Virus record (IMG/VR): IMGVR_UViG_3300030101_000024 | Coordinates: 1 to 21,203 of that record | Direction: 5' to 3' (one strand) | DNA length: 21,203 bases | Source of the DNA: a virus | In this document: positions 3,045 through 7,861 of the stretch, in pieces | How positions within the stretch are numbered: the first letter of the stretch is position 1 | How the letters are laid out: the number at the start of each line of letters is the position of its first letter | Program-made: the position numbers and the translations under genes | Notes under the pieces: model-generated | What the model saw: only the letters and a program-made list of their open reading frames with translations | Told to the model about the DNA's origin: nothing | The model's database searches: none

Positions 3045-4528
3045 TGGCTTGGTATAACAATATATTTGGAAACAATAAAAAACCCAAAAGACAATTTAAA
3101 AGAAGCTATACAGGTGCAAATACAGGTAGATTATTTGCAGATTTTATAACTAGCTCTACTTCTGCTGACGCTGAAATAAAAGATAACATAAGGCTACTAA
3201 GAGATAGAAGCCGAGATTTAGCAAGAAACGATCCATTTATTGCAAGGTATCTAAACCTGATGGTATCTAATGTGATCGGAAAAGCAGGGATAAGAGTTAG
3301 CTCCAAAGCTAGAAATGACGACCAATCATTAGATATTGGAGCTAACCTCCTCATTGAAAGAGCTTGGAGAGAATGGTCGCAACTAGGTAACTGTACTGTA
3401 AATGAAAGACTTACATTTATAGATTGTCAAAAAATATTTATAGAAACTCTTTGTAGAGATGGTGAAGTATTAGTAAGAAAAGTAAAAGACACAAACTCAC
3501 CTTTTGGATTTAGGATTGCATTTTTGGAAGCAGATCATTTAGACGAAAACAAAAACAGCACAAAACTAGCTAATGGCAATAGTATTAAAATGGGTGTTGA
3601 AATGGATAAGAATGGTAAACCAGTAGCTTATCATTTATTTAAAAAACATCCATACGACAATACATATCCAAAACCAGCACAAGAATATATAAGAGTACCA
3701 GCAGAAGAAATTATACATGCTTACTTACCACAAAGAGCAGAACAAACTAGAGGTGTTTCTTTTATTGCACCTATTATAGCTAATATGAAAATGCTTAATG
3801 GATATTATGAAGCAGAGATTGTAGCAGCTAGAGTTGGTGCATCTAAAATGGGTTTCATTACAACTCCAAATGGTGATGATTATGTTGGTGATGGCGAACC
3901 TGAAGATACATTTAATCCTACAATGAATGCACAAGCAGGAGTGTTTGAGCAATTACCAGCAGGTACAAGTTTTGAAACATTTGATCCTAACCATCCAACA
4001 TCTGCTTTTGAAGCATTTACAACTAGCGTATTAAGAAGTATCGCTAGTGGTTTAAACATTTCATATCATGCTTTATCCAACGATCTTACTTCAGTCAATT
4101 ACTCTTCAATCCGTCAAGGTGCATTAGAGGATAGGAGTATGTATCAGGTATATCAACAATTTGTTATAGATCATTTTATAAATCCTATATTTAAGTCATG
4201 GTTAGAAATGGCAATATCTACAGGTTACATAAATTTACCAATAGGTAAGTTTGATAAATTTGCAAGATCAATAAATTACATTCCAAGAAGTTTTGCTTGG
4301 ATTGATCCTTTAAAAGAAATGCAATCAAATATATTAGGTTTACAAAATGGTACTGTTACATATTCAGATATAAGTATGGCGTATGGTAGAGATACAGAAG
4401 AACTATTTGAACAACATCAAAAAGAAATAGAATTAGCAAAACAATATGGTATTGAATTAGCTTATCAACCATTTGGTACTAAGTTACCAGTTGAAGCAAA
4501 TATATTAGGTGGAGATGATGGCGACTAA
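3044..4528 (+). CDS. Portal protein (lambda gpB family)
   Basis: This 494-residue protein forms the ring at the unique capsid vertex through which DNA enters and leaves. Lambda B-type features include the N-terminal R.LRDRSRDLARNDPFIARYL region (about 48-70), then MVSNVIGKAGIRV, a central EADHLD..KN stretch, the HAYLPQRAEQTRGVSFIAPII segment (about 226-246) followed by an Ala-rich helix, and the C-terminal ASGLNISYHALSNDL with NYSSIRQG and a long helix ending in FINPIFKSWLE. Length is normal for the family. The start ATG overlaps the preceding stop by one base (TAATG), so translation is probably coupled. There is no Clp-like scaffold/protease fused or adjacent as in lambda gpC; protease activity lies in the next frame. 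Confidence 0.93.
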   Translation: MAWYNNIFGNNKKPKRQFKRSYTGANTGRLFADFITSSTSADAEIKDNIRLLRDRSRDLARNDPFIARYLNLMVSNVIGKAGIRVSSKARNDDQSLDIGANLLIERAWREWSQLGNCTVNERLTFIDCQKIFIETLCRDGEVLVRKVKDTNSPFGFRIAFLEADHLDENKNSTKLANGNSIKMGVEMDKNGKPVAYHLFKKHPYDNTYPKPAQEYIRVPAEEIIHAYLPQRAEQTRGVSFIAPIIANMKMLNGYYEAEIVAARVGASKMGFITTPNGDDYVGDGEPEDTFNPTMNAQAGVFEQLPAGTSFETFDPNHPTSAFEAFTTSVLRSIASGLNISYHALSNDLTSVNYSSIRQGALEDRSMYQVYQQFVIDHFINPIFKSWLEMAISTGYINLPIGKFDKFARSINYIPRSFAWIDPLKEMQSNILGLQNGTVTYSDISMAYGRDTEELFEQHQKEIELAKQYGIELAYQPFGTKLPVEANILGGDDGD

Positions 4529-7500
4529 TTTTCCAACGCAAGGTGATGATAAAAAAATATCATTAAGAAACTCACAATATCCACAATTTGATTATGATTT
4601 TATTGCTGGTGTAAAAGAGAATGATAACGATATATATAAAGCTGGTGGTAACATAAGAGGTAATGAAGCATTTAATCTATGGACAAAAGCAAGAGCAGGT
4701 GAAGAAACTGCTGGTGTTATAAAATGGATTAAAGAGAGAGAAGCGTGGGCTGCAAGACATTTTGGTGATGGTTCTCAATTTAAGTCAGGAGATAAACCAG
4801 CTAGACCATCTAATATTGCAGGAGTTATAGCACAAATGAAGTGGGGAGTAATAGGTAATTTAGGAGAACAAAGAATGAAGGAAGTTGTATTAGAAGCTAT
4901 AAAGTATAGAGAAGGTAAAGAATCAGGATCAGCAAGTCAGGCTCAACAGGATAGAAATATGGAAACAAGACAAGAAACAATAGAATATGAAGTAATAATT
5001 AAAAAGGGTGAGAATAAATATGGTGAAGGTAATAAGTTTTATTTAGATGGTGAACTATCACCAAGTCTAGTAATGCTACAAGGCAATACATATAAATTTG
5101 ATATTTCTGATTCTTCTAACAAAACTCATGCTCTAAGATTTTCAACAACTGAAGATGGTACTCATAATGAAGGTAGTGCATATCAAACTGGTGTAACTAT
5201 AAATGGTAAAGCAGGTGAGGAAGGTGCATCTATAAGTATTGAGATACAAGAAGATACTCCTGATCTATATTATTATTGCGTAAATCATTCAGGTATGGGT
5301 GGCAAAATTGATGTAAGACAAGTAGAAGATACTGAAGAGAGAGCAGTATCAGAAGCAGTAGAAAAAGGTTTAAAAGAAAAAGTAGAAAAACATAATGAAG
5401 AGGTTGGTAATACAGCTTCAAAAAGAACAACATACAGAACACTTCTTGCAGTCTTTGAAAGAGGTATTGGTGCTTATAAAACCAATCCAGCTTCAGTAAG
5501 ACCAAATGTAAGCTCACCTGAACAATGGGCATATGCAAGAGTTAATAGCTTTCTATTCGCTTTGCGTAATGGAAGGTTTCAAGGTGGGAAGCACGATACT
5601 GATCTGCTTCCTGAATCACATCCTTTATCATCAAAAGAGGAAAAAGCTATGAAAGATAAAGAAGATAGACATATCCTCAATATCAGCGAACAAGACAACA
5701 AAGTAGTTGTTGAGTTTGCAAAACAGAATGAGGATAGAGAAATGGTTGAAGAAGAAGATAAGGAAATGGAATCAGCTAGACCTTATCACTATGACGAAGA
5801 TGAAGATAAAGATAGAAAAGTTGTTAGTATTAAAACTAGCTACAGAACTATTGATTTATCTAGGTCTGAATTTATAGATGAAGAGAAAAGGTTGGTACGA
5901 GTTGGCGTATCTTCTGAAGAACCAGTTGAACGCAGTTTTGGAATGGAAGTTCTAGGACATGCACCTGAAGATATAAACATGGAGTTTATGCAATCAGGAA
6001 GATCACCTTTATTGTTAGATCATGATATGACTAAGCAAATTGGTGTTGTAGAAGAATTTAAACTAGATCAGACAGCTAAAAGGACAATAGCTGTAGTCAG
6101 ATTTGGAAAATCTGCTCTTGCTGAAGAAGTTTTTAGAGATGTGGTCGATGGTATAAGAATGAATATATCAGTTGGCTACAGAGTAGATAAGATGGAACGA
6201 TACAATAAAGATGATGAAACTTATTATCGTGCTAGTTGGACTCCTATGGAGATTAGCTCTGTAAGTGTACCAGCAGATCAAAGCAGACTTGTTGGAGTTG
6301 GTCGTTCTAAAGATAAACAAACTTTAAATACACATAAGGTAAAAATAATGGAAAACGAAAAACAAGAAATAAATCTTGATGAAGTTAGAACTCAAAGTGT
6401 GGAAGAAGCAAGAAAAGAATTTCAAAAAAATTCAAAAGAAATTATTGATCTTGGCGTAAGACACAATAAAAGAGATTTAGCTAATCAAGCTATTAAAGAA
6501 GGTATTTCTGTAGAAGAATTTAGAGGACAACTATTAGAAAATATTTCTAATGATGTTCCTTTAGAAACTCCAACAGAAATTGGTTTAACTGAAAAAGAAA
6601 CTAAAAGATTTAGTTTGATGAGAGCAATAAATGCTATGGCTAATCCTACAGATAGAAAAGCCCAAGAAGCTGCAAAATTTGAATTTGAATGTTCAGAAGC
6701 AGCACAAAGAGCTTATGGGACTACAGCACAAGGCGTAATGCTTCCTGACGAAGTTTTAAGAAACTGGAATCAGAGAGATTTAAATGCTTCAGATGATTCA
6801 AATCTTATAGGACAAGATTATAGAGCAGGTGATTTCATAGATGTTCTAAGAAATAACTCTGCTGTAATGCCTATGGCAACTATGCTTAATGGACTAAGTG
6901 GCGATGTAAAAATCCCTAAGAAAACTGCTGCTTCAAGTGCTGCATTTATTAGTTCAGAGGGTGGTGCTAGTGGCGAATCTGAATTTACAGTAGGTTCTGT
7001 AACTATGTCTCCAAAAACATTAGGAGCTCATACAGATGTTACTAGACAATTAATGATTCAATCATCTATTGATGTTGAAAACTTAATTAGAAATGATTTA
7101 GCACAAGCTATGGCTATTGCGATTGATGATGCTGCTCTTGAAGGAAGTGGCTCTTCAGGTAATCCTACGGGGATAACCAACACGAGTGGTATCAACTCGG
7201 TATCACTTTCAAGTGCTGCTGCACCAACATTTGCTGAAATGGTTTCAATGGAAACTGCTGTAAGAGTTGATAACGCATTACTTGGTGATCTTGCTTACAT
7301 AGTACATCCTACTAACTATGGAACATTAAAAACTACAGAAAAAGCAACAAATACAGCACAATTTATAGCTGTTAATGATGAAGTGAATGGCTACAAAGTT
7401 GTAGTTTCACCTCAAATTACTGCAAATAATTATGTATTTGGAAACTTTAATGACTTGCTTGTTGGTATGTTTGGTGGATTAGACATTGTTGTTGATCCAT

Positions 7501-7595
7501 TCTCAAACTCAACTTCAGGTACAGTTAGAATTGTAGCTCTACAGTCAGTTGATGTAGCTGTTAGACATGCTGTATCATTCTGTGCTGCTAGTTAA
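4518..7595 (+). CDS. Fused head protein: cupredoxin-like domain, S78-like prohead protease and HK97-fold major capsid protein
   Basis: This 1025-residue frame joins parts that are usually separate genes. Numbering from ATG 4518: residues 27-135 are a conserved-looking phage module (REAWAARHFGDG, PSNIAGVIAQMKWGVIGNLG). Residues 155-268 are cupredoxin-like (H204, then C254, H257 and M260 in YYYCVNHSGMGG). Residues 300-371 are a second module (RTLLAVFERGIGAYKTNP, WAYARVNSFL, DTDLLP..HPLS). Residues 407-433 are very acidic. Residues 440-600 are an HK97-type protease with likely catalytic H502 (LLLDHDM) and S551 (MNISVGY). The rest is an HK97-fold capsid protein after a helical delta-like region. 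GTG 4509 and ATG 4515 are alternative starts; GGTGGAG (4508-4514) best fits 4518. It overlaps the portal by 11 bases. Self-cleavage should release the capsid subunit. Internal starts at 5649 and 6348 may add shorter products. Confidence 0.88.
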   Translation: MATNFPTQGDDKKISLRNSQYPQFDYDFIAGVKENDNDIYKAGGNIRGNEAFNLWTKARAGEETAGVIKWIKEREAWAARHFGDGSQFKSGDKPARPSNIAGVIAQMKWGVIGNLGEQRMKEVVLEAIKYREGKESGSASQAQQDRNMETRQETIEYEVIIKKGENKYGEGNKFYLDGELSPSLVMLQGNTYKFDISDSSNKTHALRFSTTEDGTHNEGSAYQTGVTINGKAGEEGASISIEIQEDTPDLYYYCVNHSGMGGKIDVRQVEDTEERAVSEAVEKGLKEKVEKHNEEVGNTASKRTTYRTLLAVFERGIGAYKTNPASVRPNVSSPEQWAYARVNSFLFALRNGRFQGGKHDTDLLPESHPLSSKEEKAMKDKEDRHILNISEQDNKVVVEFAKQNEDREMVEEEDKEMESARPYHYDEDEDKDRKVVSIKTSYRTIDLSRSEFIDEEKRLVRVGVSSEEPVERSFGMEVLGHAPEDINMEFMQSGRSPLLLDHDMTKQIGVVEEFKLDQTAKRTIAVVRFGKSALAEEVFRDVVDGIRMNISVGYRVDKMERYNKDDETYYRASWTPMEISSVSVPADQSRLVGVGRSKDKQTLNTHKVKIMENEKQEINLDEVRTQSVEEARKEFQKNSKEIIDLGVRHNKRDLANQAIKEGISVEEFRGQLLENISNDVPLETPTEIGLTEKETKRFSLMRAINAMANPTDRKAQEAAKFEFECSEAAQRAYGTTAQGVMLPDEVLRNWNQRDLNASDDSNLIGQDYRAGDFIDVLRNNSAVMPMATMLNGLSGDVKIPKKTAASSAAFISSEGGASGESEFTVGSVTMSPKTLGAHTDVTRQLMIQSSIDVENLIRNDLAQAMAIAIDDAALEGSGSSGNPTGITNTSGINSVSLSSAAAPTFAEMVSMETAVRVDNALLGDLAYIVHPTNYGTLKTTEKATNTAQFIAVNDEVNGYKVVVSPQITANNYVFGNFNDLLVGMFGGLDIVVDPFSNSTSGTVRIVALQSVDVAVRHAVSFCAAS
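4977..5321 (+). other. Cupredoxin-like domain inside the capsid polyprotein
   Basis: Residues about 154-268 of the polyprotein read as a beta-sandwich with alternating hydrophobic strands, ending in YYYCVNHSGMGGKIDV. H204 (KTHALRF), C254, H257 and M260 match the ligand set of type-1 copper proteins. The C-x2-H-x2-M spacing is that of amicyanin; plastocyanin has two more residues before Met. This shows a possible metal site but not metal binding. Similar YYYC..H.GMGG segments are, to my knowledge, common in structural proteins of marine phages, where they may serve as a capsid decoration or adhesion fold. Confidence 0.65.
5636..5651 (+). promoter_or_regulatory. Candidate internal ribosome binding site and start before the protease module
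   Basis: AGAGGA (5636-5641) lies 7 bases upstream of an in-frame ATG at 5649 (residue 378). Initiation here would give a 648-residue protease-capsid protein without the cupredoxin-like and N-terminal modules. The motif also encodes part of SKEEKAM, so it could be a coincidence of codon choice. Confidence 0.35.
6335..6350 (+). promoter_or_regulatory. Candidate internal ribosome binding site and start for separate major capsid protein
   Basis: TAAGGT (6335-6340) is 7 bases upstream of an in-frame ATG at 6348 (residue 611), exactly between the end of the protease domain and the start of the capsid delta-like region. The product would be 415 residues, a normal length for an HK97-type capsid precursor. 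It parallels lambda, where Nu3 starts in frame inside gene C. Confidence 0.4.
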
Positions 7596-7614: not shown

Positions 7615-7640
7615 AATGGGTGGATTAATTTCCGCCCATT
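7615..7640 (+). repeat. Strong hairpin after the capsid gene
   Basis: AATGGGTGG (7615-7623) pairs with CCGCCCATT (7632-7640) in a 9-base-pair stem with one G-T wobble and the 8-base loop ATTAATTT. On the + strand no T-tract follows; instead a ribosome binding site begins 5 bases later. This favours an mRNA end-protecting or processing structure over a terminator. On the opposite strand TTTTGTTTG follows the stem, which resembles a terminator, but no opposing gene is seen. Confidence 0.55.
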
Positions 7641-7657: not shown

Positions 7658-7861
7658 ATGAAATATTTAATTTTACAAAACACAATAGCTAACAAACAAA
7701 AAGTAAATGCAGGTGATGTAGTAGAACTTTCAGTTGATGAAGGAAGATCACTTATAGGTTATGGCAAAGCTGAAGAATATAAAGGCAAACCAAAAAAAGA
7801 AACAAATAGAAGTGTTGGCTTAAAAAAATCAGAAACAAAAGTAAAGAAAAGAGCTAAGTAA
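7658..7861 (+). CDS. Small Lys-rich head-region protein of unknown function
   Basis: I do not recognise a defined function. From ATG 7658 the protein has 67 residues: a short folded-looking part (MKYLILQNTIANKQKVNAGD, then VVELSVDEGRSLIGYGKAE) and a Lys/Thr/Ser-rich, highly basic tail. The pattern recalls small proteins often found just after the capsid gene in siphoviruses. The start is supported by AAAGGGAG ending 5 bases upstream. An alternative start at ATG 7595 overlaps the capsid stop and would add 21 residues, but those codons run through the hairpin at 7615-7640, so it is less likely. The basic tail could contact DNA or the acidic capsid interior; that is speculation. Confidence 0.65.
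   Translation: MKYLILQNTIANKQKVNAGDVVELSVDEGRSLIGYGKAEEYKGKPKKETNRSVGLKKSETKVKKRAK

Follow-up and report, generated by a model that had tools for sequence, protein, structure and literature searches.

The open reading frame (ORF) at 4518–7595 of the window, the whole stretch of 21,203 nucleotides of DNA from a marine phage analysed here (IMG/VR record IMGVR_UViG_3300030101_000024), is probably a nested gene, from which the capsid protein is also made independently while the long forms carry a prohead protease. Conserved internal ribosome-binding sites point to such an arrangement rather than to a single giant self-cutting protein, and we infer that three products of 113.6, 71.6 and 44.6 kDa (1025, 648 and 415 aa) are made, all sharing the same C-terminus. 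The fusion itself is known and it is the putative internal starts, deduced from sequence comparison, that are added here. Protease-capsid fusions are widespread and their annotations describe a single long major capsid protein, which would be the wrong precursor if the capsid protein starts internally.

The earlier note had claimed an uninterrupted frame of protease and capsid protein, and this was confirmed as translation gives a single open frame of 1025 codons without a stop on the + strand (Table 1). An in-frame GTG is present upstream at 4509 and its use would add three residues. The Pfam profile Phage_capsid (PF05065) matches residues 770–1022 (E 4e-37) in the C-terminal part and the closest solved capsid structure is that of phage R4C (PDB 8gta, E 5e-43), which identifies this part as an HK97-type capsid protein at the level of homology. 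The delta-like segment ahead of it has a length that fits the stand-alone relatives described below, which possess approximately 125–130 residues in front of their capsid domain. The gene order around the ORF (terminase, head-tail joining protein, lambda-family portal, protease-capsid ORF, connector, tail, tape-measure and tail-fibre) is that of an ordinary siphovirus head-tail cluster. A hairpin (ATGGGTGG/CCGCCCAT) is located at 7615–7640 directly 3' of the capsid stop, and the following gene probably starts at 7658, with AGGGAGA upstream, rather than at 7595.

Table 1. Features of the protease-capsid ORF (positions in the window)
Feature	Position	Strand	Description
Whole ORF	4518..7595	+	1025 aa, 113.6 kDa; N-terminal modules, protease, delta-like segment, HK97-fold capsid protein
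N-terminal module	4518..4952	+	residues 1-145; relatives lack it or have another module in its place
Cupredoxin-like module, optional	4962..5321	+	residues 149-268; plastocyanin-like H...C-x2-H-x2-M
DUF5824 module	5355..5612	+	residues 280-365; Pfam match 300-347
Shine-Dalgarno AGAGGA before putative internal start 1	5636..5641	+	energy -6.0; last GG 8 nt upstream of ATG
Putative internal start 1, ATG	5649..5651	+	residue 378; predicted 648-aa, 71.6-kDa protease-delta-capsid product
S78-type prohead protease domain	5826..6344	+	residues 437-609; H502/S551, invariant E578 and D587
Shine-Dalgarno AAGG(T) before putative internal start 2	6336..6339	+	8 nt spacing
Putative internal start 2, ATG	6348..6350	+	residue 611; predicted delta-capsid precursor of 415 aa and 44.6 kDa, corresponding to HK97 gp5
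Delta-like (scaffold) segment	6348..6722	+	residues 611-735; assigned from position and length
HK97-fold capsid domain	6723..7592	+	residues 736-1025; by R4C (8gta) homology, start of the modelled shell chain is close to residue 760

Residues 437–609 are assigned to the S78-type prohead proteases on the basis of the catalytic histidine and serine, the family profile and the predicted gp21/assemblin fold. H502 and S551 are indeed 49 residues apart, as the earlier note had pointed out, and both are invariant across 64 diverse protease domains, as are E578 and D587. From the two Pfam families proposed there for these domains only Phage_capsid was matched by the window protein itself, which gives no match to Peptidase_S78 (PF04586), although 12 of 13 aligned family members do. 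The match of TIGR01543 (proheadase_HK97) to residues 496–590 is weak, with 24.5 bits compared to a cut-off of 59. The AlphaFold model of residues 437–610 is confident (pLDDT 89) and Foldseek matches it most clearly to gp21, the capsid protease of T4 (5jbl; probability 1.00, TM 0.50, E 0.017), followed by herpesvirus proteases, with all E-values for this model being at or above 0.001.

Both domains lie in a single frame in all 408 relatives that hold both of them (411 sources examined), and a missed stop, a frameshift or an assembly error at 6250–6400 could thus be rejected. As a control for selection bias a capsid-only profile was run on 563 genomes belonging to the two classes in which prophage hosts had been found, and all six matches above 200 bits were fused. 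The nearest unfused relatives score 131–145 bits and are stand-alone capsid ORFs of 420–430 aa with the capsid domain beginning at residue 125–130. In one unfused relative (L417 1147–3179) an S78-like protease, identified by eye, is encoded as a separate downstream gene, so that the capsid gene comes first and the usual order is reversed. PHROG 617 aligned to residues 437–1023 over positions 5–620 of its 626 (E 3.5e-145), and with this profile covered end to end the window protein can be placed in this protease/capsid fusion family. For the NCBIfam model NF045541 ('prohead protease/major capsid protein fusion protein') it scores 140.3 bits at model positions 1–304, which is below the curated cut-off of 525 bits and leaves it outside this family, and the same applies to the fusions of ep3 (167), CRP-811 (155) and VP882 (202). 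Cultured phages with the fusion include VP882, phiHAP-1, ep3, PPpW-3, R4C and Roseobacter phage CRP-811. The fusion had been described as a departure from most HK97-like phages, and while the frame is real and conserved it is no exception, as PHROG 617 and NF045541 already represent it. As in the fusions of PHROG 617, PHROG 4523 and NF045541, the frame of the window protein runs from the protease through a delta-like segment into the HK97-fold capsid protein, but in contrast to these fusions it adds an N-terminal part of about 400 residues (N-terminal module, cupredoxin-like module and DUF5824) and a second putative internal start.

The ATG at 6348 sits exactly at the boundary between protease and delta-like segment. 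For its analysis the relatives were grouped into 133 lineages (clusters less than 70% identical to each other) and a site was defined as an in-frame ATG with a Shine-Dalgarno (SD) energy of ≤ -4 within 45 codons after the protease. Such a site is present in 77% of the 133 lineages compared to 13.9% of 1431 equal-length windows from the same ORFs (Fisher 2e-52), and when the clade of the window phage is left aside it is present in 76% of the remaining 127 lineages. An in-frame ATG in the linker was found in 131 of the 133 lineages. The mean SD energy at the junction is -5.9 kcal/mol, while 1793 other in-frame Met codons average -1.5 kcal/mol and synonymous shuffling gives -4.0 (Wilcoxon 9e-15). 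Some of the signal survives the shuffling, as the residues encoded there require G-rich codons in any case. The RNA structure at the junction is weak, with a local folding energy of -5.2 versus -10.5 kcal/mol (p 7e-20). In the close family the K, E and R codons at the SD position end in G 81 times when 32 are expected, and close relatives keep the SD even though the encoded residues vary (KV, EV, RV, QV). SD and ATG are found at the same boundary in CRP-811 (AAGGAG), CRP-831, CRP-406, R4C (GGAGG), Alexa, ep3, VP882, phiHAP-1 and RcCronus, despite the linker of these isolates being poorly alignable. About a fifth of the lineages, including those of cyanophages S-CBS1 and S-CBS3, show no detectable junction SD. 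Taken by itself, the window shows no exceptional signal at the 6348 site, as SD energies are equal or stronger at the ATGs of residues 107, 120 and 409 and the shuffle test of the site is not significant (p 0.15). SD evidence from the window only was therefore rejected as insufficient, and the case for the internal starts is a comparative one. We found no account of an internal start in these fusions in the open-access literature, which given this scope is a weak negative.

The second candidate start at 5649 and its SD are retained by 58 of 79 close relatives, including some with differing residues at this position or with another N-terminal module. A scan of these 79 relatives showed the lowest synonymous rate of the gene at residues 366–388, the region of ATG 5649, and a near-lowest one at residues 598–613, with the z-scores being overstated since neighbour pairs in the scan are not independent. 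When all in-frame ATGs in the 79 relatives were scanned, an SD preceded 68 of 76 ATGs at residue 611 and 52 of 53 at residue 378, compared to 23 of 154 in the next-best ATG column. The 5649 site is clade-specific, being absent from relatives at approximately 60–63% identity, and other lineages with N-terminal extensions gave a mixed picture for a second internal start. Codons 405–413 (5730–5756) are synonymously constrained as well and hold ATG 409 with GAGGA upstream, which is possibly an alternative start.

The ORF contains in-frame internal ATGs with SDs under selection, as characterizes a nested gene of the lambda C/Nu3 or Mu I/Z type, and the 415-aa product would have the same geometry as the stand-alone capsid relatives. 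The nested frame continues through the capsid domain to 7595 and does not encode a stand-alone scaffold. We propose that the former protease and capsid genes, the counterparts of HK97 gp4 and gp5, are now read in one frame, but that the capsid gene still has a ribosome-binding site and a start codon (ATG 6348) of its own. Most of the capsid precursor, consisting of delta and shell domain, would thus be made independently. Initiation further upstream, at 5649 or at 4518, would give long forms of 648 and 1025 aa, respectively, with the same delta-capsid end. Such long forms would co-assemble with the short form, so that a minority of shell positions would carry a covalently tethered protease and, from the 1025-aa form, also the N-terminal modules. 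Finally the protease would release both itself and the delta segment by cleavage, and the remaining shell would consist of subunits of approximately 27–30 kDa. The protease had been suggested to act as an attached scaffold, but the likelier scaffold is the delta segment (residues 611–735), with the protease being joined only in the minor long forms. Transport of the N-terminal modules into the prohead, as also suggested, is possible but would be substoichiometric.

If the capsid start at 6348 is used, the ORF would resemble HK97 gp4/gp5 in functions, order and sizes, with 415 aa compared to the 385 aa of HK97 gp5. HK97 has two separate genes, whereas in the window phage a capsid subunit can carry the protease in covalent linkage. 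Lambda C/Nu3 is a nested protease/scaffold precedent, with gpC being an S49-type protease. In Mu an internal start for the scaffold is located inside the protease gene and a similar site is present in PaMx73 (PMC4378225). As in lambda C/Nu3 and Mu I/Z, an in-frame internal SD and start would release the downstream part separately and the long form would hold the protease. In contrast to these systems, where the nested product is the scaffold only, that of the window would be the capsid protein itself together with a delta-like domain, and the clade of the window phage would possess a second nested level. The Dinoroseobacter phage R4C has a fused ORF with an SD before the junction ATG like the window phage, but is devoid of the long N-terminal extension, and its shell contains 415 capsid proteins (PMC10276861). 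The modelled chain of R4C (8gta) comprises residues 362–629 of the 629-aa fused ORF, i.e. its C-terminal 268 residues, and the upstream part is thus absent from the modelled shell. A word search of the main text of the R4C paper (PMC10276861) found neither 'protease' nor 'cleav'.

The earlier note had read the ORF as one self-processing product of 1025 residues. If every subunit were this long fusion, the protease and the N-terminal modules of all 415 copies would enter the prohead and be cut away there. The lack of an intervening stop in all relatives and the public records, in which the long product alone is annotated, agree with such a polyprotein, but the SD and ATG that are conserved and constrained exactly at the junction speak against it. 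Additionally, by our estimate 415 full-length copies would not fit into the shell, as their residues 1–735 would take up approximately 41,800–42,000 nm3 compared to approximately 33,500 nm3 available (for an assumed inner radius of 20 nm). We therefore regard a long product in every subunit as unlikely and the earlier description, in which the fused frame itself was right, as probably incomplete. It is also known that intragenic SD-like sequences can slow ribosomes, and those found here sit between folded domains, where they might act as pause sites that allow the protease to fold before the capsid domain is made. Pausing requires neither an ATG at start-like spacing, as present in nearly all lineages, nor a low RNA structure, making this explanation very improbable. 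Finally, the sites could be unused relics of once-separate genes, since the nearest relatives have separate genes and a fusion through stop loss would leave the old start behind, but relics would decay, whereas here the SD codons show synonymous constraint within the clade and junction sites persist in lineages with only approximately 40% identity, so that we give this hardly any credence.

With the nested gene as the preferred reading, the puzzle of how 415 fused proteases fit into one prohead would disappear, and translation initiation would be a simple way to set the protease dose. More speculatively, the strengths of the three ribosome-binding sites might set the amount of protease and N-terminal cargo per prohead, including the cupredoxin-like domain, possibly delivered together with the DNA; we consider this conceivable, though somewhat less likely than not to hold. 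If the nested gene is real, it would also suggest how additional domains could be tethered naturally within a phage head, and the N-terminal modules are possibly such tethered cargo. Residues 1–400 are a mosaic in which the N-terminal module is often replaced by others in the relatives, with PHROG 2859 matching 27 and DUF5824 matching 37 of 45 relatives. The cupredoxin-like motif, with its ligand set H, C, H and M present, occurs in 19 of 408 capsid ORFs and this type of module is also found in tail-fibre and baseplate PHROGs. Its structure model is of low confidence and gave no Foldseek match at E ≤ 0.001, and the model of the N-terminal module is poor (pLDDT 56) with an uninformative Foldseek search. 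The N-terminal and DUF5824 regions resemble a hypothetical protein of a Salinibacter phage. The record of Roseobacter phage CRP-823 (L100 2698–5626) lists a gene of its own for the N-terminal part, which overlaps with the protease-capsid gene and may reflect a real split or a sequencing error. A close relative of the window phage was also found on a 72.7-kb contig labelled as a SAR86 single-cell genome, approximately 10–20 kb from bacterial metabolic genes, and may be a provirus or else offer a clue to the host. Both putative internal starts are present in the capsid ORF of this contig (L453 12411–14714; L454).
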